From a virus, in the IMG/VR virus record IMGVR_UViG_3300027963_000041, positions 62,001-126,000 of that record: a stretch of 64,000 nucleotides of DNA. The stretch is one strand, 5' to 3'. A model generated the notes under the pieces. That model made no database searches. It had not been told where the DNA came from and saw only the letters and a list, made by a program, of their open reading frames with translations. A program made the translations under genes and the position numbers. Of this stretch, positions 4,120-62,086 are shown piece by piece (within the stretch, counting starts at the first letter, position 1; every line of letters begins with the position of its first letter).

Positions 4120-6639
4120 ATGGCACAGACTCAAATTCAGTTAGCAAATACATTCAATGAATTTCGCGCGGCATACAATGCGGCCGCGAATACCGTTGAT
4201 TCGCTAGAAACTTCACTTAACGCGATTACTGGAGGCGGAGGGTCTGGCATCAATGTTGGAACCGTAACTGCTAACAACTTCGTCAACACTACTTTAACCA
4301 GCGGAAGATTACTATTTGGTAATGCCGCAGGTCATATTGTTGGAGATGCCGGGCTGGCTTTTGCCACATCTAACAATCATTTGCTTGCCACAAACGTAAT
4401 AACTGGTAATGGTTATTTCTCAACTTCTCTTCGTGCCGCAACTGTTCAAGCAAACAATCTCACATCTGGTCGTCTTACTTTTGCAACGACAAATGGTCAA
4501 TTAACAGACGATGGTGATTTGGTTTGGGATACAAGTACAAATAGATTGACTGTAACAAATGGTCAGTTAAATCTCGCCGGTACTACATCACTAGACAGCG
4601 CAGGTAAAATTGATGTAAACAATACTCTTCGTGCCGCAAACGTAACTGCAAACAATCTTACATCTGGTCGCGTTCTAATCGCAGGCACATCTGGTCTGAT
4701 CACAGACGATAGCGGATTGACATACAATTCCGGAACAGACTCTCTCACCGCAAGTGGTAACATTACTGCAACTGCATGGGCTAATGCCGCAAACATGAAC
4801 ATTACAACCAATTTAAGTGTTGGTGCTAACGTAAATGTCTCAGGTACAGTAAATGCCGCATCCGACTTACATGTTGGTGGTGCGGCACAATGGATTATCG
4901 ATAAAGACGAAGATCAAGACGTTCACTTGGTTACAGCGGTCGGTCAAAGTGATGGCTCGCACGATATTGCTATTATTAACCGCAGTAATAGTGCAAACGC
5001 ATATGCCGAATTGATTGCAATGAACAACGCAGGTAATACCGATAACGGTTGGGTATCAATTGGTATTAATTCAACAAACTACAATCAAGGTGCGTTCGCT
5101 ATTACAAAAGGCGAAGACGCATACATTCTTTATAATCAACCAGTAGGTTCAACAAAGTCTGGTGACTTAATTATCGGTACTGGTGGTAACGGTACAGGCA
5201 ACAAGATCATCTTCTCAGCGAATGGCTTTGATGATCCAGCAAATAACACTCAGTTGACTATTGTTCCTGGTGTTAGTATTCACGTTGAAGTTCCTACACA
5301 GTCTATTTCGACCACAACTGGTGCATTGACAGTCGCAGGTGGTCTAGGCGTTGTTGGTAACATGAACGTAGGTGGTAACGTAACCATCACAGGTACTATT
5401 TCTCTACTTGGTGCAGGTAACACAGTTTCAACAGATACACTTTCTGTTGCAAACGCGATGTTGTTCCTTGCGAATGGTAACTCCGCAGACACAATCGACA
5501 TTGGTGTTATTGGTGAATACACAGCAGGTACAAAGAAGTATCTTGGCTTTGTTCGCGATGCATCAGATGGTGTCTTTAAACTATTTATTGATGGTAGCGC
5601 CAAACCTTCAAACACAGTAAACTTTGGTCTAGCAGGATTGAAGTATGGTTCAGTACAAATTGGTGAATTGTATACATCAAATACTACTGCAACTTCAAGC
5701 ACTACTACAGGTTCACTCAGAGTTGCGGGTGGTGCAGGTATCGCAGGTGGTGTATGGGCTGGCGGTGCAATTCGCACAGACTCAAATACTGTATCTACAT
5801 CTATATCAACTGGTGCATTGATTATTGCTGGTGGCGCAGGTGTCGCAGGCGCAATCAACGCTGGCGGTGCAATTAAAACAACAGATAGTACAGCATCCAC
5901 AACCACAGCAACTGGTTCTATCATCGCAGGTGGTGGTCTAGGCGTTGGTGGTCAAGTTACCGCTGGTGGCGCACTCAAGACTACAGATAGCACGGCATCA
6001 ACTACAACCGCGACAGGTTCTATCATCGCAGGTGGTGGTGCAGGTATCGCAGGCGCAATCAACGCTGGTGGTGCAATTAAAACAACAGACGCTACAGCAT
6101 CAACTACAACCGCGACAGGTTCTATCATTGCGGGTGGCGGCCTAGGTGTTGCCGGAGCCGCTTATATTGGTGGTATTATCTCCACTAGTGACGCCACAGA
6201 CACTACATCAGGAACATCGGGTGCTGTTCGAGTTGCTGGTGGTATCGGTGTTGTAAAAGGTGTTCACGTTGGTGGAACACTTATCACAACAAAAGTATCA
6301 GAGAAAACATCAGATGTATCGGCAAGTGGTGTTACAACATTCGATACAACAAACGGTCATGTATTCGCAGTTACACCAAGTGCTGACTTTACTGCAAACT
6401 TTACAAACGTAGACACAACATCAAGCCGTGTTCAAGTAATGACACTTATCATCACACAAGGCGGAACGCCACGTGCCTTGTCCGCAGTTCAGATTGCTGG
6501 TGTCGGACAAACAATTAAATACGCTGGTAACGTGACTCCAACATTTACTGCAAATAAAACAGAACTTGTTGTTATTACACTCATTAGAACTAGCGGCGGC
6601 TCATGGACTGTTACAGGTCAACTATCACAATACGGTTAA
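4120..6639 (+). CDS. Repeat-rich tail-fibre-like structural protein
   Basis: An 839-residue Gly/Thr/Ala/Ser-rich protein with the composition of phage fibres. The N-terminal third repeats a unit around ANNLTSGR followed by a DD-G/S segment (near residues 55, 110 and 183). The middle holds tandem 34-residue units with the core TTATGSIIAGGG and a turn GGAIKTTD, encoded by 102-bp DNA repeats between about 5680 and 6180. The C-terminal 100 residues are non-repetitive (VSASGVTTFDTTNGHVF and onwards) and look like a terminal head domain. The start has an AGAGAGAG purine tract just upstream. Receptor binding or fibre function is inferred from repeats and neighbours; no chaperone or peptidase tail domain is recognised. 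Confidence 0.7.
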   Translation: MAQTQIQLANTFNEFRAAYNAAANTVDSLETSLNAITGGGGSGINVGTVTANNFVNTTLTSGRLLFGNAAGHIVGDAGLAFATSNNHLLATNVITGNGYFSTSLRAATVQANNLTSGRLTFATTNGQLTDDGDLVWDTSTNRLTVTNGQLNLAGTTSLDSAGKIDVNNTLRAANVTANNLTSGRVLIAGTSGLITDDSGLTYNSGTDSLTASGNITATAWANAANMNITTNLSVGANVNVSGTVNAASDLHVGGAAQWIIDKDEDQDVHLVTAVGQSDGSHDIAIINRSNSANAYAELIAMNNAGNTDNGWVSIGINSTNYNQGAFAITKGEDAYILYNQPVGSTKSGDLIIGTGGNGTGNKIIFSANGFDDPANNTQLTIVPGVSIHVEVPTQSISTTTGALTVAGGLGVVGNMNVGGNVTITGTISLLGAGNTVSTDTLSVANAMLFLANGNSADTIDIGVIGEYTAGTKKYLGFVRDASDGVFKLFIDGSAKPSNTVNFGLAGLKYGSVQIGELYTSNTTATSSTTTGSLRVAGGAGIAGGVWAGGAIRTDSNTVSTSISTGALIIAGGAGVAGAINAGGAIKTTDSTASTTTATGSIIAGGGLGVGGQVTAGGALKTTDSTASTTTATGSIIAGGGAGIAGAINAGGAIKTTDATASTTTATGSIIAGGGLGVAGAAYIGGIISTSDATDTTSGTSGAVRVAGGIGVVKGVHVGGTLITTKVSEKTSDVSASGVTTFDTTNGHVFAVTPSADFTANFTNVDTTSSRVQVMTLIITQGGTPRALSAVQIAGVGQTIKYAGNVTPTFTANKTELVVITLIRTSGGSWTVTGQLSQYG
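5680..6180 (+). repeat. 102-bp tandem coding repeats in fibre gene
   Basis: Successive units start near 5861, 5963 and 6065 (period 102 bp, 34 codons), with more diverged copies on either side. The encoded unit contains TTATGSIIAGGG. Near-identity of the inner copies at DNA level suggests recent duplication or homogenisation. Confidence 0.7.
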
Positions 6640-13261: not shown

Positions 13262-14014
13262 TTAAAAATATTTTCTTAGAGTCTTCATAAAAAGATTTTT
13301 GTAAGTAGCAGTTCTATCAAACGAATAAGAATTGATATAGTTTTTCTTTTCTAGCCACTCTTTATCTTTTTGATTTGCATCTCTCACAACCAATTCTAAT
13401 TTTCTTTCTGTAATTGGTATGATATGGACCAAAGGATATCCTGCTGGAAACAATATATTCCCATGAGGTACATTCCACCAACCTTGAATGTTTACCTCAG
13501 TCGATTCATCGGTATCTAGCAATCCGATTGACGCATCAAATAGCGCATTGTCTGGATAAGAAATTGGATTAAAAAGAAGTTTAATTCCTTGTGGGGCAAC
13601 GACATTCCAAGGAGTGTTAATCTTCATAAAGTTTTTAGATTGATTCCATGTTCTAGGCAACTGTTCTAAAATATGATCTGGTTGACTTTCAAATAATGCT
13701 TTGCTAGTAAACACATCTTTAATCAATGCTTCAGTTGGAATAGTCCACTCAAACCCTCTGCCTTTTGTAGAGTCAACTTCAATAACTGCATCATGCCAAA
13801 GCGGAACAATATATCCGCTTGACATTAACTTTACAATTCCTGGACACTTAGCAATATGTGATTTACGAACTATTGATGGGTCATTTTCTCTTGTATCTTT
13901 ATAATTTTTAAATGCATTTGTCATCCAAATTGGCATCATTTTCGATGCAGGAACAATCGGAAATGATTCAGCAAGACCAGGAACACTTGAAAAGAAAACT
14001 ATTTCGTCTTTCAT
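13262..14014 (-). CDS. Conserved hypothetical protein of minus-strand island
   Basis: A 250-residue protein starting MKDEIVFFSS; this start overlaps the upstream stop in an ATGA, which is preferred over a longer frame. Visible landmarks are PIWMTNAF, a KCPGIVKLMSSGYIVPLWHD block, a W-T-I-P segment, an INTPWNV strand, and a GYPLVHIIPITER block near the C terminus. The spacing of these blocks resembles an uncharacterised family common in T4-like marine phages, but I cannot assign a function. Translational coupling to the methyltransferase fusion upstream suggests a shared pathway. Confidence 0.6.
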   Translation of the reverse strand: MKDEIVFFSSVPGLAESFPIVPASKMMPIWMTNAFKNYKDTRENDPSIVRKSHIAKCPGIVKLMSSGYIVPLWHDAVIEVDSTKGRGFEWTIPTEALIKDVFTSKALFESQPDHILEQLPRTWNQSKNFMKINTPWNVVAPQGIKLLFNPISYPDNALFDASIGLLDTDESTEVNIQGWWNVPHGNILFPAGYPLVHIIPITERKLELVVRDANQKDKEWLEKKNYINSYSFDRTATYKNLFMKTLRKYF

Positions 14015-15675
14015 TTTCTCACCACAACAATATATAATCCATTCCACCAATCTTTAGAACTTTCAATTCCATTGAGAATCTTCTTATGATACAGAATTTC
14101 TAGTCCAGCCTTTTTAATGCCTTCGTCAGCACCAGAAACAATACCATCCCAATTAGCGTCATCGAAAATAAGAATGGCTTCTTTATCAAGTTTATCTGCA
14201 TAATATAATACTGCATTTCTTGTTGACTCATGATCGTGCGGACCGTCATAGAACATAAACTTTACAGGCTCATCAATCAAATCTTTATTGACTTGAAGAA
14301 AATCAGCATCGATAGCGTGAACATGATTCTCTTGTACATATGGTTCAATTGCACTAGCAAACTTTTCGTATTTGTTTTCAGGCATCTCAAAGTTACCATT
14401 TTCAGGATGCGTAGTCTGCGACCAGTTATCGATTGCCCATGCTTTAATTGTGTTACCTCTCAATGCAGATGCAAGTGTCGCACCCATTGCGGTACCAATC
14501 TCAAGATAATTGCCTGCAAATTTTGCAGTATGATTAATAATCTTTTGCACTCTAGGACTTGTTAAGCCTTTGATATTGATAATGATATTATCTGTAGCAG
14601 ACTTTTCGACAATATCTGCCATCGCAGAAACCATTGGTGTAAGAAATTGCGTTGCTTTCTTGTCATAGATTTTATCGCAGTAGTGACAATCCCAGCAATC
14701 AAATTTGCAAGTTTTAATTTTATTGCGCCAAATATCAATAGGCTTTTCTTCTAAATTATTGTCGGCAATATAGTCATCGAATTGATCAAAAAGAACTTCA
14801 TCACCATTCGCAAAGCGTTTGATGATATCCATTGTTTCAAGCAATCTAGATGAGGCTTCGCGCCCATGCATCTTGATTACATCAATGCCTAATTCTTCAA
14901 CAAACTCAACCCAATCTTCACGCCATGGCGGAAAGTTAGCCGTCTTCAATGATAATGCGTTGTCTTGATATTCCCACTTGGTGCAACTTACTCGGCTTGA
15001 TGGTGCGTTAAAATACTGTGGCGCATCATTGCCTCTTGTATTATTGTATTCAAAATGTTCTACCATGAATGAGCATTGACCTAAACAGCCTTCATTTGCA
15101 AGAAGGCTAAGTTTAATTGGCATACCATTTTTGTGGCAGTAATCTTTTGCTTCTTTAATTCTCAACAATGCATCTCTGTCTCGCATAAGATCACGATCCA
15201 AATTGATATAATGAAATCCTATCTGTGCAAGGTTCACTACTTCAGTTGCAGTATGAACATCTCTAAGGATCGTATTTTTGATCATTAACTTAGGAAATGC
15301 TTCTTGAATTTGACCTGTAGCAACCCAATGGGTGTGAGGTATTGTGGCAATATGAATGCCAGCATCATAATATGGCTTGAAGTTTTCAATCCATAAATCT
15401 AGATTTTCTTGCGTTGGAGGAACCTGAATGTTATTGAATGTTGCGCTGATTGGTATGCCAAGCGCGTCTTGAATATTTCTAGCGGCTAAAATGGCTTGTT
15501 CATAATCACCAGCATTTTTAAACACATCTCCCATTGCATCTTGGTGAAAAGGCGCAATTCGGGAGGTAAAATATACATCATAAATCCAGTCTTTATATTT
15601 TTGCAGAAACTCTAAAAAGTGAAAATATTCCTTCTCAGACAGTTTTGGATTCAATGGCACACTAAAAATTTTCAT
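14011..15675 (-). CDS. Cys-rich TIM-barrel-like / SAM methyltransferase fusion
   Basis: A 554-residue two-part protein starting MKIFSVPLNP, with a GAAGGTG site just upstream. The N-terminal part (about 1-370) resembles peptidase-U32-like TIM barrels: it has the segment ISATFNN, the strands NTILRDV and INLDRDLMRDRD, and a Cys motif LLANEGCLGQC, followed by VSCTKWE and a CKFDCWDCHYC cluster. These Cys could hold an iron-sulphur cluster as in U32 relatives, which is inference. The C-terminal part (about 385-554) is a class I SAM methyltransferase with motif I NYLEIGTAMGATL, an acidic AIDNW, and FMFYDGPHDHEST followed by AILIFDD. It leads the minus-strand island. Confidence 0.65.
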   Translation of the reverse strand: MKIFSVPLNPKLSEKEYFHFLEFLQKYKDWIYDVYFTSRIAPFHQDAMGDVFKNAGDYEQAILAARNIQDALGIPISATFNNIQVPPTQENLDLWIENFKPYYDAGIHIATIPHTHWVATGQIQEAFPKLMIKNTILRDVHTATEVVNLAQIGFHYINLDRDLMRDRDALLRIKEAKDYCHKNGMPIKLSLLANEGCLGQCSFMVEHFEYNNTRGNDAPQYFNAPSSRVSCTKWEYQDNALSLKTANFPPWREDWVEFVEELGIDVIKMHGREASSRLLETMDIIKRFANGDEVLFDQFDDYIADNNLEEKPIDIWRNKIKTCKFDCWDCHYCDKIYDKKATQFLTPMVSAMADIVEKSATDNIIINIKGLTSPRVQKIINHTAKFAGNYLEIGTAMGATLASALRGNTIKAWAIDNWSQTTHPENGNFEMPENKYEKFASAIEPYVQENHVHAIDADFLQVNKDLIDEPVKFMFYDGPHDHESTRNAVLYYADKLDKEAILIFDDANWDGIVSGADEGIKKAGLEILYHKKILNGIESSKDWWNGLYIVVVRK

Positions 15676-23709: not shown

Positions 23710-25374
23710 ATGGCAATCAAACTGTTCGGTTTTAAAATCGGTAAGGATGAACCTGCAAGTGAACAGGTAAGATCATTCGTACCACCAAATGATGATGATA
23801 ATGCAGTCAACATTGTCGGTGGCGGAGTATATGGAACTTATGTTGATCTTGAAGGTACAGTCAAGAACGACTCAGAACTAATCCGCAAGTATCGTGAAAT
23901 GTCGCTTCAAGCAGAGTGCGACACAGCGATTGATGATATTGTAAACGAAGCAATCGTCTATCAACCTGATGAGTATCCAGTACAAATTGTATTGGACAAA
24001 TTAGAGCAACCAGAATCAATCAAAAAGAAAATTCGCGATGAGTTTAAGCACATTCTTAAACTTCTTGATTTTGGTAATCAAGGATATGATATATTTCGTA
24101 GATGGTACGTTGATGGACGTTTATACTATCACCTAATCATTGATGAAAAACAACCTCGCGCTGGATTGAAAGAGGTTCGTTATATTGACCCTCGCAAAAT
24201 TCGCAAAGTACGCGAGACACAAAAATCAAGAGCAGTAGCAGGTCAAACAGAATTATATGTTAGACCTATTGAATACTTTGTTTTTTCAGAAAAAGGATTT
24301 GCTAAAGATGCAAATCAAGGTTTAAAAATTGCACCAGACTCTATCTGCTATGTTCATTCGGGCATTTCAGATAAAGATGGTAAAGTAATTATTTCACATT
24401 TAAACAAAGCAATTCGCCCACTTAATCAGTTGCGTATGCTTGAAGATGCAACAGTTATCTATCGTATCTCTCGCGCACCCGAACGTAGAATTTTCTACAT
24501 TGACGTTGGTAATTTGCCAAAGATTAAAGCGGAACAATATCTCCGTGATATTATGCAAAAGTACAAGAACAAACTTGTATACGATGCAACCACAGGAGAG
24601 ATTCGTGATGACAGACGCTTTCAAACAATGCTTGAAGACTTTTGGTTGCCTCGCCGCGAAGGTGGCAGAGGTACAGAAATTACTACACTTCAAGGCGGTC
24701 AGAATTTGGGTGAGATTGAAGACGTTTTATATTTTCAAAAGAAACTCTACAAATCACTTGGCGTTCCAATTTCACGCTTAGAATCTGATAACGGATTCTC
24801 TCTCGGTCGCGCATCCGAGATTACACGCGATGAATTAAAATTCTCAAAATTTATTGCAAGACTACGCAATAGATTTACACATCTATTTGACCGTATGCTT
24901 GAAACTCAATTAGTTCTCAAGGGCATTTGTACTAAGGCAGAATGGAATCAAATTAAAGAAGAAATTTATTTCGACTTTATTACCGATGCACATTTTGCTG
25001 AACTAAAAGATGCTGAAATTCTCAAAGAACGTCTAACACTTCTTTCAGATATTGATCAACACGTTGGTAAATACTTTTCCGTTGCTTATGTTCGTACTAA
25101 AATTCTACAACAGACTGAAGACGATATTAAGCAAATGGATAAAGAAATGGCAGAAGAAGAAGCAACAATGCCAGATGAAGAACCAGCACCCCCTCCAATG
25201 CCTGTAATGCCTCCTGCACCACCACCGCAACAAGTTGTAGTGAAGGTAAAGAAAGAGGAGGCAGAGCCTCATATTATTGATGATACGGATCAAAAAGAAT
25301 TAGCCAAATCAATGACTAAGTTTTTTGATACACTAGTTGAACAAGAGGCAAGAGGTGACAAAGAAAACGAATGA
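23710..25374 (+). CDS. 20: gp20 portal protein
   Basis: A 554-residue portal vertex protein, length close to T4 gp20 (524). Recognisable blocks are [34 protein letters not shown], the region [24 protein letters not shown] (core [17 protein letters not shown]) and [20 protein letters not shown] (core [13 protein letters not shown]). Dodecamers form the ring at the unique capsid vertex that initiates head assembly, serves as DNA channel and binds the terminase. The C terminus is acidic with a Pro-rich linker. It overlaps the start of the collagen-like fibre gene. Confidence 0.93.
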
Positions 25375-28300
25375 TAGCATAATCAACGATGCACTTTCAG
25401 TCGCTACCTCAATAGCGTACACTAAGAAAGAGATTGCAAAACTAAAAGAAGAGTTGCAATCGCAAGTCGTTGAACAAGGTCCTACTGGTCCAGTAGGTCC
25501 GCGCGGTGCTATTGGCGCAAAAGGTGAACAAGGCGCACAAGGTCTTAAAGGCGACAAAGGCGATGTGGGTCCTCGCGGTCCAGTTGGTGATACAGGACCG
25601 CAAGGTCCAAAAGGCGATGTAGGCGAAGTTGGTCCGCAAGGTCCGCAAGGTCCGCAAGGCGAACAAGGTTCAATTGGACCACAAGGCGCACAGGGCGAAC
25701 GTGGTTTGCAAGGAGAGCAAGGACCAAAAGGCGACAAAGGCGATAAGGGAGACAAAGGTGAATCTGGTAAAAACGGAGTGGACGGCAGAGATGGATCGCA
25801 GGGCGCAATGGGTCCCGCTGGCACAACAGGCCCTCAGGGAATTCAAGGTGAACGAGGTCCTAAAGGTGAGCCAGGAAGAGTTGGATCCCAAGGCATTCAA
25901 GGTGAACGAGGTCCTCAAGGCGAATCCGGACCACAGGGTGTTCAAGGACTGCCTGGTAAGGATGGTAGAGACGGAGACACAAAGCCAATTGAACAACAGT
26001 TCACAAAGTTCACAAAAAATCTCAACGACAACTTTGCAGAATACAGAACAAAGTTAAACGCACTCATTAGTAAATCACTAGCCAACGATGCATGGAAAGC
26101 AACTGGTTCTGGTGAAGTAAATCTACGCTATCTTGATGACGTAGATCGTAATAGTATTCAAGATGGTTATGTATTATCATACAATTCAACCACAAAAAAA
26201 TTCACATTCGTAGAGCAAACCGGTGGTGCAGGTGGTAGTGCAAATCTAATTGGTTATGCAGTTAACACTACAACTGATCTAATTTGGACTACCGCAAACT
26301 CAGCATGGGCAACCGCAAATTCTGCGCTCAACCAACAAAGTGGTGATCTTGATCAATTTGCAAGAGATAGAGCAAATGGTGCATATGGTCAAGCCAATTC
26401 ATCATTCAATCAAGCCAATCTTTCTTACACGGTTGCCAACAACTCTTGGGCGGCCGCAAACGCATCTTACATTCAAGCAAACTCCGCATTCAACAAGGCT
26501 AACAATGCACTTGATGTTGGACAAGCCGCTTGGAATTACGCAAACACAATTGTTGTTTCAAGTCTTTCTGGATACGCAGTTAACACAACCACAGATTTAA
26601 TTTGGTCTACTTCAAATTCAGCGTGGCAAAGTGCAAATTCTGCACAATCGTTAGCGCAAGCCGCGTACAATTATGCAAACACAATTGTTTCTGATACTCA
26701 GATTGATCCGTTTGCAAGGTCTACTGCCAATGGTGCTTTTGCTAAGGCTAACAATGCTTATGATGTAGCCAATGCCGCATACAATTATGCAAACACAATT
26801 GTATCAGATACACAAATTGACCCTCTTGCGCGTAGTACAGCAAATGGTGCTTTTGCAAAGGCAAATAACGCTTACGATGTAGGCAACTCTGCGTGGGCAA
26901 CTGCTAATGCCGCTTATAATGCCGCAAACAATGTTGTACTGTACAATCAAAATTTAAATACATCAAACTCAGTTTCTTTTGCAGGGCTAACTGTTACAGG
27001 TAACACTACAGTTCAGGACGTTATACCTTCAGCAAATATTACATACAATCTTGGTTCGTCAACTGCAAGATTTAGAGATTTATATTTAAGCGGAAACACA
27101 ATATATCTTGGTGCAATAACTTTAACTGCCGATAAAATTACAACAACTGCCGCAGTTGCCAATGCATCTTACGCACAAGCAAATACTGCAACTACTAATG
27201 CCGCTACTGCAAACACTTTAGCAGGTTCAGCATTTGCAAAGGCTAACAATTCTTATGACGTAGCAAATGCGGCTTACAATAAAGCAAATACTGGCACTAG
27301 TCAATTAGTTAACGGTGCTAGTACAGTTAGCCTTAGTGCAAATGGTAACTTAACAGTACCAGGACCAATTATTGGATTAGGAAATTCTAAACTAGACTTT
27401 ACCACTTACGGTTCTAACACAGCATATCTAACAACTACTGATGATGATGCTACTGCATTGTTTATGGGATTGACAGATTTAAACTTATACGCTCATACAA
27501 CTGTTCAAATTAGGACCAATACCACAGGAGTATCGAACAACTGGACATTTGGTGCAGATGGCACATTAACATTCCCAGATAACACAGTACAAACAACAGC
27601 ATTCACTGGTACTGTAATTGATTCTTTAGCAAGAAGCATTGCAAACTCTGCTTTCGATAAAGCAAATACTTCAGTAACATATAATCAAAGTCTTAATACA
27701 TCAAACTCAGTTTCTTTTGCAGGAGTAACAGTAACAGGAAATACAACAGTTCAACATGTTATTCCTAGCGCAAACATCACATATGATTTAGGAACGCCAA
27801 CTGCTAGATTCAGAGATTTATATTTAAGTGGAAATACTATTAATTTAGGTGGTGCTACAATTAAAACAGATGTTGGTACCGGAGCGATTGCACTAATTCC
27901 GGTACCAACTGTAGCAAATCCAAACCCAACAGGTATTGTTGTGTCGCCGACCGGAACTATAAGTACGGTATCTACCATCGGTGGCACCTTAACTGCAAAT
28001 GCAGTTAGCAATTCGTCTAATAATACAGCAATTACTGTAACTGAATATGGCGGTATTTTATTAGCAGAAGATTCAGGCACTTCAATTTTAGAAAGAAGAA
28101 TCTACAAAAATAGGCCGCTATCAGATTTACAAAATACTACAATTTCTACAGCGCAGTCAGCAACATTTAATGACCAAATTGGATCATTAGTTCCTGTTAG
28201 CAAACATTTTGTATGCAACAATGCAACAGAATCATTGTTTGTTTTGCCATCAGCAAATGGTGTAAGCCAAGGATTCAATTTAACATTCGATATAGTAAAT

Positions 28301-28552
28301 AGTGGCAATTTAATTTTCGAAGTAGCATCATCAAATACAGAGGTTATTAGGTTTGGACCAAATCGTGCAACGCAAGTTAAAATCGTTAATATAAATTCTA
28401 TAGACGCAGACACTATTGGTAATAAACAATTCAATTCGTCTACGGCAGGCATTTCATTCTCAAATTCAATTCTTACATTCAGCGGGCAACAAAACATATA
28501 TACACTAAAATTTGTACGCATAAATTCTACTGATTATATGTTGTCAAGATAG
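25355..28552 (+). CDS. Collagen-like fibre protein between portal and core genes
   Basis: A 1065-residue protein if translation starts at the GTG at 25355, which has an AGAGG site six bases upstream; a TTG at 25337 is the alternative. Residues about 38-210 are Gly-x-y collagen triplets ([21 protein letters not shown]). After a short link comes an Asn/Ala-rich region with repeated [20 protein letters not shown] units, then two copies of a block with IPSANITY...LG...[14 protein letters not shown], and a C-terminal beta-rich domain. It is a trimeric fibre or adhesin. Its place inside the head gene cluster, coupled to the portal gene, leaves open whether it is a head or tail fibre. Confidence 0.75.
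25480..25980 (+). repeat. Collagen-like Gly-x-y coding repeats
   Basis: About 165 codons of continuous Gly-x-y triplets, rich in GGTCC and GGCGA codon pairs. These produce long antisense open frames that are not genes. Confidence 0.9.
26670..26900 (+). repeat. Tandem [11 protein letters not shown]-type coding repeats
   Basis: Two adjacent units of about 110 bp encode [11 protein letters not shown]-(F/L)[18 protein letters not shown], with shorter, diverged copies up to 27290. Part of the fibre shaft. Confidence 0.65.
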
Positions 28553-52813: not shown

Positions 52814-52845
52814 ATATTTTTATGTTATGAATGAGGTGCTATATG

Positions 52846-53781
52846 ATGGAAAACTTTTTATGGGTAGAAAAGTATCGCCCTAAAAAAATTGCAGACACAA
52901 TTCTGCCAACTGATCTAAAACAAACTTTTACTGAGTTTGTAAATCAAAAAGAAGTACCCAATCTTATCCTCGCTGGCGGTCCTGGCGTTGGTAAGACTAC
53001 TGTTGCAAAAGCAATGCTTGAAGAACTTGGCTGTTCTTACATTGTGATCAATGGTTCTATGAATGGTAACATTGACACACTACGCAATGAAATTAAAAAC
53101 TTTGCATCAACTATATCTTTTAAAGGTGGAAGAAAATATGTCATTCTTGACGAGGCTGACTACCTTAACCCACAGTCTACGCAACCTGCCTTGCGTAACT
53201 TCATGGAAGAGTATTCTGCTAATTGTGGTTTTATACTCACTTGTAACTTTCTTAACCGTATCATTGCTCCCCTACATTCCAGATGTTCCGTTATACAGTT
53301 TAAAATAGCGGCATCTGATAAGCCAAAACTCGCGGCACAGTTTATGAAGCGAGTGGAGATGATTCTCAAAACCGAAAAGGTTGAATACGATCAGAAGGTT
53401 GTAGCAGAATTAATTCTCAAACACTTTCCTGATTGGCGCAGGGTTCTCAATGAACTTCAGCGTTATTCTGCTACAGGTAAAATTGACACCGGCTTGCTTG
53501 CAAACATCTCTGATGTTTCGATGAAGAAACTTATGCAAGCGATCAAAGACAAAGACTTTTCAACTGCGCGTAAGTGGGTTGTTGATAATTTAGATAACGA
53601 CCCCGCGGTTCTGTATCGCAACTTCTTTGATAATGCTGTTGAATACTTTACGCCGCAATCTGTTCCACAACTTGTGGTTCTTCTTGGTGAATATCAATAC
53701 AAGTCTGCATTTGTTGCTGATCAAGAAATTAACATGGTTGCGTTTCTCACCGAAGTGATGGCGTCATGTGAAGCAAAATGA
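52846..53781 (+). CDS. 44: gp44 clamp loader large subunit
   Basis: A 311-residue AAA+ protein starting MENFLWVEKYRPKKI; T4 gp44 has 319. This ATG lies seven bases after a GAGGTG site; an ATG just before it and one 15 bases upstream are less suitable. Walker A is GGPGVGKTT, Walker B ILDEADYL, and the S-R-C motif HSRCSVIQF provides the arginine finger. With gp62 it forms the 4:1 loader that opens the gp45 ring on primed DNA. The stop overlaps the next gene in an ATGA. Confidence 0.94.
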   Translation: MENFLWVEKYRPKKIADTILPTDLKQTFTEFVNQKEVPNLILAGGPGVGKTTVAKAMLEELGCSYIVINGSMNGNIDTLRNEIKNFASTISFKGGRKYVILDEADYLNPQSTQPALRNFMEEYSANCGFILTCNFLNRIIAPLHSRCSVIQFKIAASDKPKLAAQFMKRVEMILKTEKVEYDQKVVAELILKHFPDWRRVLNELQRYSATGKIDTGLLANISDVSMKKLMQAIKDKDFSTARKWVVDNLDNDPAVLYRNFFDNAVEYFTPQSVPQLVVLLGEYQYKSAFVADQEINMVAFLTEVMASCEAK

Positions 53782-54263
53782 CAAGACGAAAATTGTCAGG
53801 TTTTGATAGACTGCATAACACAATCAAACGCAATGCAATTTACTTAGATGAACGCACACAAGAGTGGAAGATAGATTCTTCTACAAACCATAAGCGTTGG
53901 AAAGATGTAGCAAATGATTGGCAACCAAAGAAACTTTTTCTTACAGTAAAAAACTTAGAAGACATTTGGAATGCACAAGGCAGAGTTTGCTACTGGTTTA
54001 AAATTCCATTAGACTTTAATCTACTCAATGCTACTTACACTCATTATGTGCGTAAACATCCTCTAGCGCCATCAGTAGATCGAATTGACGATAGTGGAGA
54101 CTACACAAAAGAAAACGTAGTCATATGTTGCCGTCTTGCGAACTACGGAAGGAACGAATATCCTTATGATAAATTTCATGATATAATCAATGTAGTGACT
54201 CGAAAGAAAGAACACTATGTTCCTGATATTATTAATTTTATAACTGGACCTTATACATCATGA
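53778..54263 (+). CDS. HNH-like nuclease-type protein between gp44 and gp62
   Basis: A 161-residue protein. The region GRVCYWFKIPLDF and then APSVDRIDDSGDYTKENVVICCRLANYGRN resembles the beta-beta-alpha HNH core of phage endonucleases (core PSVDRIDDSGDYTKENV), where the Asp of D-R-I-D and the Asn of the last helix are typical. The usual first catalytic His is not clear and a single Cys replaces a zinc-knuckle pair, so activity is doubtful. It sits between the two clamp loader genes, a place where freestanding homing endonucleases could have entered. ATGA overlaps on both sides. Confidence 0.6.
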   Translation: MTRRKLSGFDRLHNTIKRNAIYLDERTQEWKIDSSTNHKRWKDVANDWQPKKLFLTVKNLEDIWNAQGRVCYWFKIPLDFNLLNATYTHYVRKHPLAPSVDRIDDSGDYTKENVVICCRLANYGRNEYPYDKFHDIINVVTRKKEHYVPDIINFITGPYTS

Positions 54264-54673
54264 ATCCTTTTGACTATATCAATGCAATTAATCAGAGCAA
54301 AGAGAACCTCATGGTCGGCTCTGATAACGATGAATTGGCAGAAAAGGTGTACGATCCTTACATCACAAATCGTGGATTATCTTTTTTTGCCGATACGATT
54401 CTCTATGCTAATGAGATGAATCGCCTATGTTTACTAGATAAAAAACCTCAATTCTCCTATTTACTAAATAGTGTGAGACCACGGAAGCGTTGGAGCAAGT
54501 GGTTGAAAAAAGAAAAGATTGAGGAAGTGGATATCATTTCGGAATATTTTGGCTATAGCAAATCTAAGTCTAAGGATATCATTAAACTTCTCACCGATGA
54601 ACAAATAAAAATTATAAAATCTAAATTAGAAAAAGGTGGGCCTACCACTAAGGAGAAGAATAATGAGCGTTGA
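54260..54673 (+). CDS. 62: gp62 clamp loader small subunit
   Basis: A 137-residue protein. YDPYITNRGLSFFADTILYANEMNRL matches the conserved centre of gp62 in T4-like phages (core ITNRGLSFFADTILYANEMN). It is shorter than T4 gp62 (187), as in cyanophage versions. It is the single non-ATPase subunit of the gp44/62 loader. It overlaps regA by 11 bases. In most relatives it directly follows gp44; here an HNH-like gene separates the two. Confidence 0.87.
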   Translation: MNPFDYINAINQSKENLMVGSDNDELAEKVYDPYITNRGLSFFADTILYANEMNRLCLLDKKPQFSYLLNSVRPRKRWSKWLKKEKIEEVDIISEYFGYSKSKSKDIIKLLTDEQIKIIKSKLEKGGPTTKEKNNER

Positions 54674-55061
54674 AAATTTGTTAGAGGTGACGCTGAAAGA
54701 AGAAGATGATTTTCTAAAAGTGAGAGAAACATTGACCCGCATAGGCGTTGCATCCAGAAAAGATAAAAAACTATTCCAGTCTTGCCACATTCTACATAAG
54801 AAGGGCAAGTATTACATTGTACATTTTAAAGAACTATTTGCATTAGATGGCAAAGGAACAGACTTTGATGACAATGATATGGGTAGACGAAATACAATTG
54901 CCAAACTACTCGAAGAATGGGGTTTGGTAAAAGTTGTAAATAAAAATGCAGTAGAAGCACCTGTTGCGCCATTGTCTCAAATTAAGATTCTATCTTATGG
55001 CGAAAGAGATGATTGGGAACTCATTACCAAATATAGCATCGGAACTAAAAAGAGAGTATGA
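54663..55061 (+). CDS. regA: RegA translational repressor
   Basis: A 132-residue protein starting MSVENLLEVTLKEEDDFLKV after an AAGGAG site. It matches T4 RegA (122 residues), with VRETLTRIGVASRKDKKLFQSCHILHKKGKYYIVHFKE (core QSCHILHKKGKYYIVHFKE). RegA binds the initiation regions of many early mRNAs, including those of the clamp and clamp loader, and blocks translation. Order 44-62-regA is that of T4. Confidence 0.93.
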   Translation: MSVENLLEVTLKEEDDFLKVRETLTRIGVASRKDKKLFQSCHILHKKGKYYIVHFKELFALDGKGTDFDDNDMGRRNTIAKLLEEWGLVKVVNKNAVEAPVAPLSQIKILSYGERDDWELITKYSIGTKKRV

Positions 55062-55498
55062 TGGAAGAACTTATTAGCGAAATGAAGGTTGCACTTGCAA
55101 CCGCCTTTACATACCAACTCAAAGCACACTACTATCATTGGAATGTAGAGGGTCCAGATTTCCCTCAGTACCACGAATTACTTGGTAAAATTTATCAAGA
55201 TGTGCATGATAGTGTCGATCAGTTTGCCGAAGAGATTCGCGCACTTGATGCATATGCGCCTGGCAGTTATACCAGATTCTCAGAACTTTCTCTAGTCGAG
55301 GAAGACAATACACTTGTACCAGCAAATGTCATGTTTAGTCGTTTGTTGAATGATACATATATTGTAGTCGAACATTTAACTGCTGTATACGAATTGTGTG
55401 AGAACAATAAAAAATATGGGTTGAACGATTTTATTGCAGGTAGAATTGACACCCTAAATAAATTTGCGTGGCAGTTAAAAGCAACGCTAAAAATTTGA
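55058..55498 (+). CDS. dps: Dps-like ferritin
   Basis: A 146-residue four-helix ferritin-like protein. The inter-subunit ferroxidase ligands of Dps have exactly the right spacing: H27 and H39 (12 apart), D54 (15 further) and E58 (4 further), in AHYYHWNVEGPDFPQYHE and DVHDSVDQFAEEI. Dps proteins form 12-subunit shells that oxidise and store iron and protect DNA from peroxide. The Lys-rich DNA-binding N-terminal tail of E. coli Dps is absent. It overlaps the regA stop in an ATGA, so it is made with replication proteins. Its own TGA stop is inside the next -35 box. Confidence 0.85.
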   Translation: MMEELISEMKVALATAFTYQLKAHYYHWNVEGPDFPQYHELLGKIYQDVHDSVDQFAEEIRALDAYAPGSYTRFSELSLVEEDNTLVPANVMFSRLLNDTYIVVEHLTAVYELCENNKKYGLNDFIAGRIDTLNKFAWQLKATLKI

Positions 55499-56880: not shown

Positions 56881-57192
56881 ATGGGTAATATTAGATTATT
56901 TCGTTTGATTAGTGGTGAAGAAATTGTTGGTGAAGAAATTGGCACCAGCCAAGGTATGCCAAAACGCGCAATTAAAAATCCTTGCCTTATTGGACTTATG
57001 CCGACACCAACTGGTGGTGCAACATTGAACATGCAACCACTTCTACTCTTTTCAGACACAAAAGAAATTAACATTAAAGAAGATCACATTCTGTATGATA
57101 CGGGTGTTGACATTAAGATTCTAAACAAGTATAATGAGATATTTGGATCAGGGATCGTAATTGCTCAACAAACCCCAACTTATACACGATGA
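56881..57192 (+). CDS. Sm-like (LSm-fold) hypothetical protein
   Basis: A 103-residue protein starting MGNIRLFRLISGEEIVGE, with a GGAG site six bases upstream. The beta-strand pattern (RLFRLISGEEIVGEEIG, then GATLNMQPLLLF and a closing strand near EIFGSGIVIAQQ) resembles the Sm-like barrel and the protein encoded at 35174-35572. It directly precedes, and overlaps in an ATGA, the DNA polymerase N-terminal gene. RNA binding is a possible role; unproven. Confidence 0.55.
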   Translation: MGNIRLFRLISGEEIVGEEIGTSQGMPKRAIKNPCLIGLMPTPTGGATLNMQPLLLFSDTKEINIKEDHILYDTGVDIKILNKYNEIFGSGIVIAQQTPTYTR

Positions 57193-58631
57193 AATTCTAT
57201 ACACACTTTACACGATATGGTAACTATATTCTAGAACGCGGCTATGAAAATGGCAAGCGTTACGCTAATAAAGTAGAATATAATCCAACATTGTTTGTTC
57301 CGTCAAAAACGGAAACTGAATTTAGTACATTGGAAGGCTATCATGTGGCGCCCGTTGAAATGGGAACGATGCGTGATGCAAATGACTTTATTAAAAAGTA
57401 TGAAGAAGTAGAAAACTTTCCAATCTACGGCTCTACAAACTATCCATATGTGTATATCAATGAGCAGTATCCAGATGAAGTATACTACGACAAAGATTTA
57501 ATTCGTGTTGCAAACATTGATATTGAGGTTGGTTCTGAGAACGGGTTTCCTGAGCCAGACAAAGCGAGTGAACCAATCACCGCAATCACAATAGAGATTG
57601 ATGGTACGTTTTTCGTCTTTGGTTGTGGCGACTATGAAACACATCAAGATAATGTATCATATCTCAAATGCAAAGATGAGAATCATTTGATTGAACAATT
57701 TCTAAACTTATGGGAATTAAAATCACCAGACGTAGTGACTGGTTGGAATATTCAATTCTTTGATATTCCATATATCTACAATCGCATTAATCGCTTGATG
57801 GGTGAGAAGACAGCAAAGCGTTTGTCCCCATACAAATCGATTGGCGAACGCACAACAACAATCCACAACAGACAGCAAACTGCGTTTGATCTTGTGGGTA
57901 TTGCAATTCTAGATTATCTAGAACTGTACAAGAAATTTACTTATTCGCAACAAGCATCTTATCGCCTTGATCATATCGCATACATCGAACTTGGTGATAA
58001 AAAATTAGACTATTCTGAGCATGAAACTTTACACCAACTCTATAAAAACAACTATCAAAAATTTATTGAATACAACATCAAAGATGTGGAACTTGTCGAC
58101 CGCCTCGATGAAAAAATGAAATTCATTGACATGGTGCTGGCGCTGGCATACGATGCAAAGGTCAATATGACTGATGTATTCACGCAAGTACGCATGTGGG
58201 ACACTCTAACACATAATGCCTTGTGGAAGAAAGGTGTTGTTGTACCTCAAAAGAAATTCTCATCAAAGAATGAGAAGTATGAGGGTGCCTATGTGAAAGA
58301 GCCGGCACCAGGCAAATATGATTGGGTTGTATCGTTTGACTTGAACAGTCTTTATCCACACTTGATTATGCAATACAATATTTCGCCTGAGACTATCATC
58401 AACGGCAAACACGCCAGCGTAAGTATTGAAGATTTACTGCACAGTAAATATAACAATGATAGCGAATATGTTATGGCTGCCAATGGCCATTATTTTAGAA
58501 AAGATGTGCAAGGCTTTCTGCCTGAGATGATGCAACGCATGTATAATGATCGTGTTCTATATAAAAATAAGATGATTGAATCACAGAAAGAACTTGAGAA
58601 AGTCAATGCACAGTTAAAGGAATTAGCATGA
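57189..58631 (+). CDS. 43A: gp43 DNA polymerase, N-terminal part (split gene)
   Basis: A 480-residue protein containing the N-terminal, 3'-5' exonuclease and first palm parts of a T4-like family-B polymerase. Exonuclease motifs are complete: I D111/E113 (VANIDIEVG), II N187/D192 (GWNIQFFDIP), III Y295/D299 (EYNIKDVE). Polymerase motif A is VVSFDLNSLYPHLI with D384. It stops within the fingers, after the helix NKMIESQKELEKVNAQLKEL, and lacks motifs B and C. These are encoded by the gene at 59133. The stop TGA overlaps the start of an intervening oxygenase gene, and an AAAGGA site for that gene lies in its last codons. Confidence 0.95.
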   Translation: MKFYTHFTRYGNYILERGYENGKRYANKVEYNPTLFVPSKTETEFSTLEGYHVAPVEMGTMRDANDFIKKYEEVENFPIYGSTNYPYVYINEQYPDEVYYDKDLIRVANIDIEVGSENGFPEPDKASEPITAITIEIDGTFFVFGCGDYETHQDNVSYLKCKDENHLIEQFLNLWELKSPDVVTGWNIQFFDIPYIYNRINRLMGEKTAKRLSPYKSIGERTTTIHNRQQTAFDLVGIAILDYLELYKKFTYSQQASYRLDHIAYIELGDKKLDYSEHETLHQLYKNNYQKFIEYNIKDVELVDRLDEKMKFIDMVLALAYDAKVNMTDVFTQVRMWDTLTHNALWKKGVVVPQKKFSSKNEKYEGAYVKEPAPGKYDWVVSFDLNSLYPHLIMQYNISPETIINGKHASVSIEDLLHSKYNNDSEYVMAANGHYFRKDVQGFLPEMMQRMYNDRVLYKNKMIESQKELEKVNAQLKELA

Positions 58632-59140
58632 TACAAACTTATACAGAAATTTTACCAAAAGATTTTTGCGAACATTTGATGCGTAAATTTGATGAACAGG
58701 AGACAAAAGATTTGTCTCATGGTATGTTTGAACAAATTGAAATTGATTGGGAAGATGAAGTAAAGGCATTGATCGATACCACAAAACATGTGGCCGAACA
58801 CTATAAAACTTTATATGATTCGCATAATATGATGCCACGGCGCAGACGTATTGAAGGGTTTCGTATCAAGCGGTATGAACCTAACAAACATTCTTTCCCA
58901 TTACATTCCGATGCGTCAAGTTTAGAATCATGCACAAGGTATCTTTCCTTTTTGTTTTACTTAAACGATAGCGAAGCAGGAACAAGATTCCATGGACCTT
59001 TAGGCATGGAGCCCTTGACAATTGAAGCAAAACAAGGTAACCTATTAGTGTTTCCTCCTATGTGGATGTATCCACACGAAGGCATTATGCCTACTGAAAA
59101 ACCAAAGTATATTATGAGTACCTATTTCCATTATGTCTGA
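58628..59140 (+). CDS. 2OG-Fe(II) oxygenase-like gene inserted between polymerase halves
   Basis: A 170-residue prolyl-4-hydroxylase-like protein. Iron ligands are H93-x-D95 (PLHSDAS) and H150 (YPHEG), with K160 (KPKYIM) in the 2-oxoglutarate position; RYLSFLFYLND is the expected core strand. Everything needed for activity seems present. It starts at an ATGA overlap with the polymerase N-terminal gene, with its own AAAGGA site, and its end overlaps the start of the polymerase C-terminal gene by eight bases. It shows no homing-endonuclease feature. Substrate unknown. Confidence 0.85.
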   Translation: MIQTYTEILPKDFCEHLMRKFDEQETKDLSHGMFEQIEIDWEDEVKALIDTTKHVAEHYKTLYDSHNMMPRRRRIEGFRIKRYEPNKHSFPLHSDASSLESCTRYLSFLFYLNDSEAGTRFHGPLGMEPLTIEAKQGNLLVFPPMWMYPHEGIMPTEKPKYIMSTYFHYV

Positions 59141-60224
59141 TAAAACAGAACTACTGAAAAGAAAACGTCAACTAGAAAACGAAATATCACGTTACAAGAA
59201 TTTGCAACTTGCAAAGAAGGTGCAACTAAACTCAGCGTATGGTGCGCTAGGTAACGAATATTTTAGATTCTTTGATCTGCGTCAGGCAGAAGCAATTACC
59301 TTTTCTGGTCAACTTTCAATTCGTTGGATTGCTGACAAACTCAATATGTACATGAACAAACTATTGAAGACTGAAGGAATTGATTATGTCATTGCGTCAG
59401 ATACGGACTCTGTATATCTCCATCTTGGTCCGTTGGTGGATATGGTCTACGGATCGAAGAGTATCGAAGAAGAAAAGATTGTTGATTTTATCGACAAAGC
59501 CTGCCAAGAAAAGATTGAACCGTTTATTGATAAGGCGTATGAAGAACTAGCGAACTACATGAATGCGTTTGATCAAAAGATGTTCATGAAGCGCGAAGTG
59601 ATTGCGAACAAAGGTATTTGGACTGCAAAGAAGCGGTACATTCTGAACGTGTGGGACTCAGAAGGGGTTCGTTATAATGAACCAAAACTGAAAATGTCTG
59701 GCATTGAAGCAGTCAAGTCTTCTACACCAGGATCATGCAGAACAAAAATTAAAGAAGCACTCAAGGTAGTCATGAAAGGCACCGAGGCAGAGTTTCATGA
59801 ATTCAATCGCAAATTCAAAGAAGAGTTTTTTACTCTGCCATTTGATGATGTAGCATTCCCGCGCGGTGTTTCTGAACTGACTAAATATCAGAGTAAGACT
59901 GATCTTTATCAGAAAGGCACACCAATTCACGTTCGCGGCGCATTGATATATAATAAACTTATTGAAACAAAAAAGTTGTCTCGCAGATATGAGACAATCA
60001 AAGATGGGGACAAGGTCAAGTTTTGTTACATGAAACTACCAAACCCTACGCAAGAGAACGTGCTATCTGTTCTCAATGTTTTACCAAAAGAGTTTGCTTT
60101 GGAGAAATATATCGACTATGAAACACAATTTGAGAAGGCGTACTTAGAGCCGCTCAAAATTATTGTGAACACTTTTGGATGGAGTGCCGAACCAGTTTCA
60201 TCACTAAAAGGATTTTTTACATGA
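59133..60224 (+). CDS. 43B: gp43 DNA polymerase, C-terminal part (split gene)
   Basis: A 363-residue protein holding the rest of the polymerase: a charged fingers helix (LLKRKRQLENEISRYKN), motif B with K29, N33 and Y36 (KKVQLNSAYGALGN), motif C D90-T-D92 (IASDTDSVYL), and the thumb. The C-terminal GWSAEPVSSLKGFF is the clamp-binding tail typical of T4-like polymerases. It must join the N-terminal polypeptide to form an active site, since motif A is there. No strong ribosome site precedes it, so translation probably depends on re-initiation at the ATGTCTGA overlap. Confidence 0.95.
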   Translation: MSDKTELLKRKRQLENEISRYKNLQLAKKVQLNSAYGALGNEYFRFFDLRQAEAITFSGQLSIRWIADKLNMYMNKLLKTEGIDYVIASDTDSVYLHLGPLVDMVYGSKSIEEEKIVDFIDKACQEKIEPFIDKAYEELANYMNAFDQKMFMKREVIANKGIWTAKKRYILNVWDSEGVRYNEPKLKMSGIEAVKSSTPGSCRTKIKEALKVVMKGTEAEFHEFNRKFKEEFFTLPFDDVAFPRGVSELTKYQSKTDLYQKGTPIHVRGALIYNKLIETKKLSRRYETIKDGDKVKFCYMKLPNPTQENVLSVLNVLPKEFALEKYIDYETQFEKAYLEPLKIIVNTFGWSAEPVSSLKGFFT

Positions 60225-61585: not shown

Positions 61586-62086
61586 ATGAAAATTGGTTTT
61601 AATTGTTCGTCATTTGATTTATTCCATGCTGGTCATGTGACAATGCTAAAGATGGAAAAAAAGTTGTGTGACTATTTGATTGTTGCACTACAGGTCGACC
61701 CTACTGTGGATAGACCTAGCACAAAAAACAAGCCTGTACAATCGGTATATGAAAGATATGTTCAATTGCAGGCATGTAAGTATGTGGATGAAATTCTTGT
61801 GTATCATACCGAAGAAGACTTAGCCAATCTGATTATGACACAGACAATGCACATAAGGTTTCTCGGTGAAGAATATAAAAATAAAGACTTTACTGGTAAA
61901 CAATATTGCATTGAAAACGGAATTGAGTTATACTATCATGTGAGGAATCATAGTTATAGTACATCGGAACTTCGTCAACGTACATATGAGTTAGAATTGC
62001 AGAAGAAAAGCGAACCTGCTATCGTTGAATATGAACAGCATTCGCCAAAGTTATTAAACAAATATTATGAAGGAAAAACACAATGA
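61586..62086 (+). CDS. Glycerol-3-phosphate cytidylyltransferase-like protein
   Basis: A 166-residue cytidylyltransferase-fold protein. The catalytic signature is [16 protein letters not shown] (H-x-G-H), with [20 protein letters not shown] for the second helix and a C-terminal [12 protein letters not shown] matching the S-T-S/T-x-L/I motif. It resembles TagD-type enzymes that make CDP-glycerol and also phage homologues in cyanophages. It is a different branch from the HldE-like enzyme at 42480. The natural substrate is unknown. It overlaps uvsX in an ATGA. Confidence 0.8.

Follow-up and report, generated by a model that had tools for sequence, protein, structure and literature searches.

A mobile oxygenase gene within the split DNA polymerase gene of a T4-like phage

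Introduction

In the Aeromonas phages 44RR2.8t and 25 the T4-type DNA polymerase (gene 43) is divided at the tip of its fingers domain, and one operon encodes the two halves, 43A first and then 43B. In phage 25 the two proteins co-purify, with polymerase activity present, and the endonuclease seg43 resides at the gene 43 split (PMC2988022). Here we describe a comparable locus in a 64,000-nucleotide (nt) stretch of viral DNA, referred to below as the window (positions 62,001 to 126,000 of IMG/VR record IMGVR_UViG_3300027963_000041). In this T4-like phage the family-B DNA polymerase is encoded by two genes, 43A and 43B, with the gene of a 2-oxoglutarate (2OG)-Fe(II) oxygenase in between. The account we favor, at a probability of roughly 0.7, is that of a two-chain polymerase that reassembles after being split at an insertion-tolerant site, and that carries at this site a mobile, co-expressed protein hydroxylase.

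A reading of the locus made from the letters alone (the sequence-only reading) had likened it to the Aeromonas split gene 43. The likeness holds, since the 44RR split is at the same fingers tip (about 511/514-519 in RB69 gp43 numbering). Unlike in the window, the gap in 44RR is untranslated and 49 nt long, and phage 25 has an endonuclease of the seg type; both phages lack the oxygenase and a translational overlap of three genes. The tip is also split in the Acinetobacter phage KARL-1, where 43A ends at ~RB69 502 and small genes lie between the halves; however, the KARL-1 gap (L295 4001-6006) is about 2 kb long and holds six small genes without assigned function, with no oxygenase. Insertion of a gene into a core replication enzyme, with a working two-chain product, is known from the mobE-split nrdA of phage Aeh1 (PMC2988022), although there a homing endonuclease forms the insert, and ribonucleotide reductase is the enzyme encoded by the split gene. 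As for the oxygenase, PHROG 61 proteins of cyanophages (S-CAM9, P-SSM4 and others) belong to the same family, with 30-37% identity, and are encoded in the same operon neighbourhood; in contrast to the window, the cyanophage gene is located between uvsX and 41, and 43 is intact. We found no report of an oxygenase in a split polymerase in the literature searched (mostly open-access papers).

Gene organization of the split locus

The parent virus record (143,095 bases) contains T4-type major head, tail sheath, gp46/47-like, clamp-loader and RegA genes. The features of the split locus are listed in window coordinates.

57189..58631, + strand: 43A, N-terminal half of the polymerase with exonuclease domain, palm motif A (DLNSLYPH) and fingers helix N; 480 amino acids
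58578..58631, + strand: C-terminal tail of 43A, ESQKELEKVNAQLKELA, an extended fingers helix belonging to the mobile cassette
58614..58620, + strand: Shine-Dalgarno of the oxygenase, AAAGGA region; AAAGGA/GAAGGA is kept in most relatives
58628..59140, + strand: 2OG-Fe(II) oxygenase, prolyl-4-hydroxylase-like; 170 amino acids, with ligands H93, D95 and H150 and 2OG-binding K160
58628..58631, + strand: ATGA overlap of 43A stop and oxygenase start
59133..59140, + strand: ATGTCTGA overlap of oxygenase end and 43B start; 43B is without a Shine-Dalgarno
59133..59198, + strand: N-terminal head of 43B, 22 residues, MSDKTELLKRKRQLENEISRYK, predicted helix; the cassette includes the first ~17 of these
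59133..60224, + strand: 43B, C-terminal half of the polymerase with fingers helix P, motif B (KKVQLNSAYG), motif C (DTDS) and thumb; 363 amino acids

The open reading frames, with the polymerase in two genes, the oxygenase in the gap and the ATGA and ATGTCTGA overlaps, are exactly as the sequence-only reading had claimed, and Pfam agrees: DNA_pol_B_exo1 and positions 14-148 of the DNA_pol_B profile match 43A, positions 144-236 match 43B, and a 2OG-FeII_Oxy_3 match lies between the halves. PHROG 262, a family of intact polymerases, matches both halves in order, and the halves are also matched by PHROGs 2062 and 1918, families of the N- and C-terminal half, respectively. The exonuclease domain and palm motifs A, B and C were thus found in the order of T4-type gp43 (Pfam, PHROG and alignment to RB69).

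The oxygenase has a Shine-Dalgarno sequence (AAAGGA or GAAGGA) conserved in the main clade. As no Shine-Dalgarno was found upstream of the 43B start, and this start codon is located within the last codons of the oxygenase, translation of 43B probably depends on coupling. The suggestion that the passenger gene has its own ribosome site was therefore right for the oxygenase and does not extend to 43B. Translational coupling of the three genes, also proposed earlier, is likely given the overlapping stop and start codons and the missing 43B site.

Conservation and selection

Each of the large scans returned the best 80 of at least 599 matches, and frequencies are not derivable from them. Among the matches listed, the complete triple 43A-oxygenase-43B was present on 21 contigs, window included, and on three further contigs it was interrupted by contig ends; the search of related phages for the same gene order, put forward as a check with the sequence-only reading, thus came out positive. 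Because of this recurrence the triple is neither chance nor assembly error, and identical junctions on many contigs rule out an assembly artefact or frameshift. Four contigs of metagenome-assembled genomes contained distant relatives (46-51%), with no consistent host.

Within the main lineage oxygenase identity was 56-100%, against about 40% for L048 (L and G numbers denote the loci and genomes compared). H93 and D95 (the HxD motif), H150 and K160 were invariant in an alignment of 11 oxygenases. The pairwise ratio of non-synonymous to synonymous substitution rates (dN/dS), taken where dS was unsaturated, was 0.04-0.29 for the oxygenase, 0.05-0.16 for 43A and 0.03-0.12 for 43B; all three parts are under purifying selection. 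The values well under 1 and the invariant ligands rule out a pseudogene and agree with the earlier description of the oxygenase as intact. Purifying selection on both halves suggests that 43A and 43B assemble into an active polymerase.

Position of the break

Alignment of the halves to intact T4-type gp43, the check named for the claim of a split in the fingers, supported the claim: 43A reaches RB69 residue 499 and 43B starts from residue 554. Helices N and P flank the break, which is at the fingers tip as in the Aeromonas-type split gp43. In the same alignments RB69 R482 and K486 correspond to R455 and K459 of 43A, and RB69 K560 and N564 to K29 and N33 of 43B. In RB69 these four residues are located at the incoming nucleotide; the nucleotide pocket should therefore form across the two chains.

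In intact relatives the tip is 22-26 residues long, with one outlier of 52 (n=100); in all split forms, with or without insert, a tail of 15-20 residues is followed by a head of 21-28 residues. In the account we favor, 43A and 43B would be made from one polycistronic message and reassemble non-covalently at the tip, a solvent-exposed location remote from the catalytic centre; the longer tail and head would probably form an antiparallel helical pair in place of the covalent hairpin. None of the tails and heads compared contains a proline, thus prolyl hydroxylation of the new termini is unlikely.

Horizontal movement of the cassette

In a polymerase tree built without the tip region, oxygenase-bearing 43 appeared at four places: the window clade, L017, L142 and L048. 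Intact sisters were found for L017 (L033) and for L142 (L150, then L151). A single clade of oxygenase-bearing polymerases was rejected by the approximately unbiased (AU) test (p=5e-43). The oxygenases of the window clade, L017 and L142 make one lineage, which also includes L264; as the L264 oxygenase is not adjacent to any polymerase, the match of lineage to place is imperfect.

L142 is about 80-98% identical to the intact L150 and L151 save for ~60-100 nt on either side of the oxygenase. L017 resembles L033 until about 60 nt short of the 43A end, is donor-like from there, and returns to the L033 type past 43B position 355-546 (permutation p=0.001 for each breakpoint). From these mosaic breakpoints it follows that the 43A tail, the oxygenase and the 43B head travel together by recombination; together with the AU test they rule out a single ancient insertion followed by vertical descent. 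The three elements act as a compact cassette, moved between phages by homologous recombination into one site, which in relatives is also found split and empty or with a nuclease remnant. Outside the tip, 2 columns of L142 had shifted to the donor type versus 2 and 9 in controls. With no excess of changes, the idea that the polymerase body had co-adapted to the insert was rejected, and the cassette seems self-sufficient.

In L048 the same tip is occupied by an oxygenase from a different lineage; a tree with all such oxygenases in a single clade was rejected (p=0.002). A GIY-YIG nuclease, considered as a driver of the movement, was found in none of six oxygenase-bearing records, mostly fragments. 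The window's own genome has a GIY-YIG gene above the Pfam cut-off (G000 contig 13955-14227; L286), located ~107 kb from the polymerase.

Other occupants of the tip and a possible origin of the split

In L049, L056, L057 and L059 gene 43 is split with a ATGAATAG overlap and no insert. L023 is split with a short spacer, and L019-L021, 93-99% identical to it, are intact. Early in the L023 43B there are an in-frame TAG and a 9-base insertion (L023 6110-6120), which may be decay, a recombination scar or misassembly. The tip gap of L193 holds at 2475-2763 a remnant of a DUF559 nuclease (PD-(D/E)XK type; E=1.9e-9) with no clear start codon. The placement of the oxygenase at a site used by mobile DNA, as proposed from the letters, gained support from this remnant and from the horizontal movement of the cassette itself; a recurrent, insertion-tolerant hot spot is the best reading of the fingers tip.

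A different position is seen in L037, where an open reading frame (5085-6000), GIY-YIG-like by eye only and with no Pfam match, interrupts 43 after motif A; the sister L038 is intact.

It is possible, though we would put it forward only tentatively, that a homing endonuclease split 43 first and was then lost, the oxygenase later entering an empty intercistronic site. The DUF559 remnant in L193, seg43 at the phage 25 split (PMC2988022) and the empty splits of the L049 type and of L023 all fit such a history. However, none of the oxygenase-bearing gaps contains a nuclease remnant, and the splits of L193, L049 and the window, being in different lineages, provide no ancestor-descendant series. A nuclease-first origin is compatible with a reassembling polymerase that carries a mobile hydroxylase, as the story of how it arose.

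The oxygenase and its neighbourhood

The insert matches only the oxygenase family in Pfam, and its predicted fold is that of a prolyl hydroxylase; the idea that it is itself a homing endonuclease was therefore rejected. PHROG families labelled ‘DNA endonuclease’ (phrog_2297, phrog_274) gave weaker matches to it. The AlphaFold2 (AF2) model of the oxygenase had a predicted local distance difference test (pLDDT) score of 91, and the best solved matches in Foldseek were the PBCV-1 collagen prolyl hydroxylase (vCPH, the top match), PHD2 and the Pseudomonas putida prolyl-4-hydroxylase (P4H; solved with EF-Tu). The double-stranded beta-helix fold, the HxD...H set and a basic 2OG-binding residue are those of the prolyl-4-hydroxylase type (PF13640). 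Fold and HxD/H/K catalytic set are shared with vCPH and P. putida P4H, but the phage oxygenase is only about 16-18% identical to them. The predicted fold favors a protein hydroxylase over an AlkB- or TET-like nucleic-acid enzyme, while fold alone leaves the substrate unfixed; the earlier idea that the oxygenase modifies DNA is weakened, as its nearest folds are protein hydroxylases.

In the wider family the gene is usually found between uvsX and 41 (as in S-CAM9), between 43 and uvsX, or after 41; the 43-uvsX-41 replication module is the home of most placeable loci. For cyanophages, a 2OG-linked nitrogen role or one in DNA repair has been proposed (PMC3037559). Two other contexts were observed: in L179 (5001-5516) a relative stands beside a tail-type gene, and in L266 (4971-5528), a different kind of phage, the context is likewise unrelated to replication. 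In the L151 genome the oxygenase is about 40 kb from the intact 43. No oxygenase was detectable in G002, G003 and G004 (144-152 kb, intact 43) or in the 147-kb L059 contig G007 (empty split), records that may be incomplete. The existence of splits without oxygenase, and of intact 43 with the oxygenase distant or absent, argues against a mandatory partnership. As a requirement, the link of oxygenase and replication raised in the sequence-only reading found no support: 43 is split without oxygenase in L049/L056/L057/L059 and in L023, and intact-43 relatives have no oxygenase or have it ~40 kb away, findings of the kind that the reading itself had listed as speaking against a functional tie. What stands is a weaker link, the residence of most of the family in the 43-uvsX-41 module. 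The likeliest account is that the split enzyme works without the oxygenase. The latter would be an independent protein hydroxylase of prolyl-4-hydroxylase fold, translated in step with both polymerase halves; its family, resident in the replication module, would here fill the 43 gap.

We consider it unlikely that the oxygenase is a partner of the replisome, hydroxylating gp43 or another replication protein, with its location in 43 fixing its ratio to the polymerase. Such a role would suit a protein-hydroxylase fold, a family whose placeable loci mostly adjoin uvsX, 43 or 41, the entry of two oxygenase lineages into the same gene and a 43B hardly translatable unless the oxygenase is translated; but splits exist without it, the 144-152 kb contigs have an intact 43 and no detectable oxygenase, elsewhere the gene lies 40 kb away or by tail genes, the split termini have no proline, and the polymerase body did not change upon acquisition.

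Just as improbable, in our view, is that the oxygenase hydroxylates a collagen-like tail fibre of the phage, its position in 43 being accidental. The top Foldseek match is indeed a viral collagen prolyl hydroxylase, and the window has a collagen-like fibre gene (25337-28552) with 56 uninterrupted Gly-X-Y triplets; yet proline occupies 2/56 Y positions (and 17 X positions), and collagen-like fibres are also present in relatives with no oxygenase (G002, G004).

We give still less credence to a reading in which the oxygenase serves the split polymerase as a regulated subunit or modifier, with hydroxylation controlling assembly or activity of 43A and 43B. Were this so, the supply of oxygen, iron and 2-oxoglutarate would exert this control, making replication responsive to the redox and nitrogen state of the host.

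Finally, there is hardly any room for a single polymerase chain made by intron splicing, intein splicing or ribosome bypass over the oxygenase gene: 43A and 43B do share a frame in the window (the gap being 168 codons), but the frame differs in L048 and the L049 type, the gap is wholly coding with separate, overlapping stop and start codons, both ends have extra helix length, no Rfam intron match was seen up to E=1 (nor a group I intron match in the window region, L037 or L193), and no intein-like Pfam domain was present in the three proteins.

Weight and implications of the proposed account

Several points weigh against a reassembling polymerase with a mobile, dispensable hydroxylase. The clade is known here from sequence records. 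L048 is a long branch of uncertain tree position, and L023, the clearest recent split, could be a misassembled or dead copy. In the AF2 model of 43B alone the head is within a helix, but as this model is poor (pLDDT 70) the helix is only suggestive. Furthermore, residence of the family in the replication module could reflect a replication role.

As the locus shows, a gene of metabolic type that encodes no nuclease is able to settle at the fingers tip of an essential polymerase gene and to spread through this site, which is otherwise known for its mobile endonucleases. Intact genes, empty splits, splits with a nuclease remnant and splits with the oxygenase make a natural series that allows tests of how a replicase came to be broken and at what cost. 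A widespread, uncharacterised family of phage 2OG oxygenases is also placed in the replication module; its predicted fold is of the protein-hydroxylase rather than the DNA-repair kind, and its substrate can be sought.

Neighbouring genes

Two more genes were observed in the replication operon that contains 43. An endonuclease VII-like gene (window 53778-54263; PHROG 3322, 1035) is located between clamp-loader genes 44 (52831-53781) and 62 (54260-54673), with 4-base overlaps with both. A Dps/ferritin-like gene (PF00210; window 55058-55498) comes right after RegA, also with a 4-base overlap.

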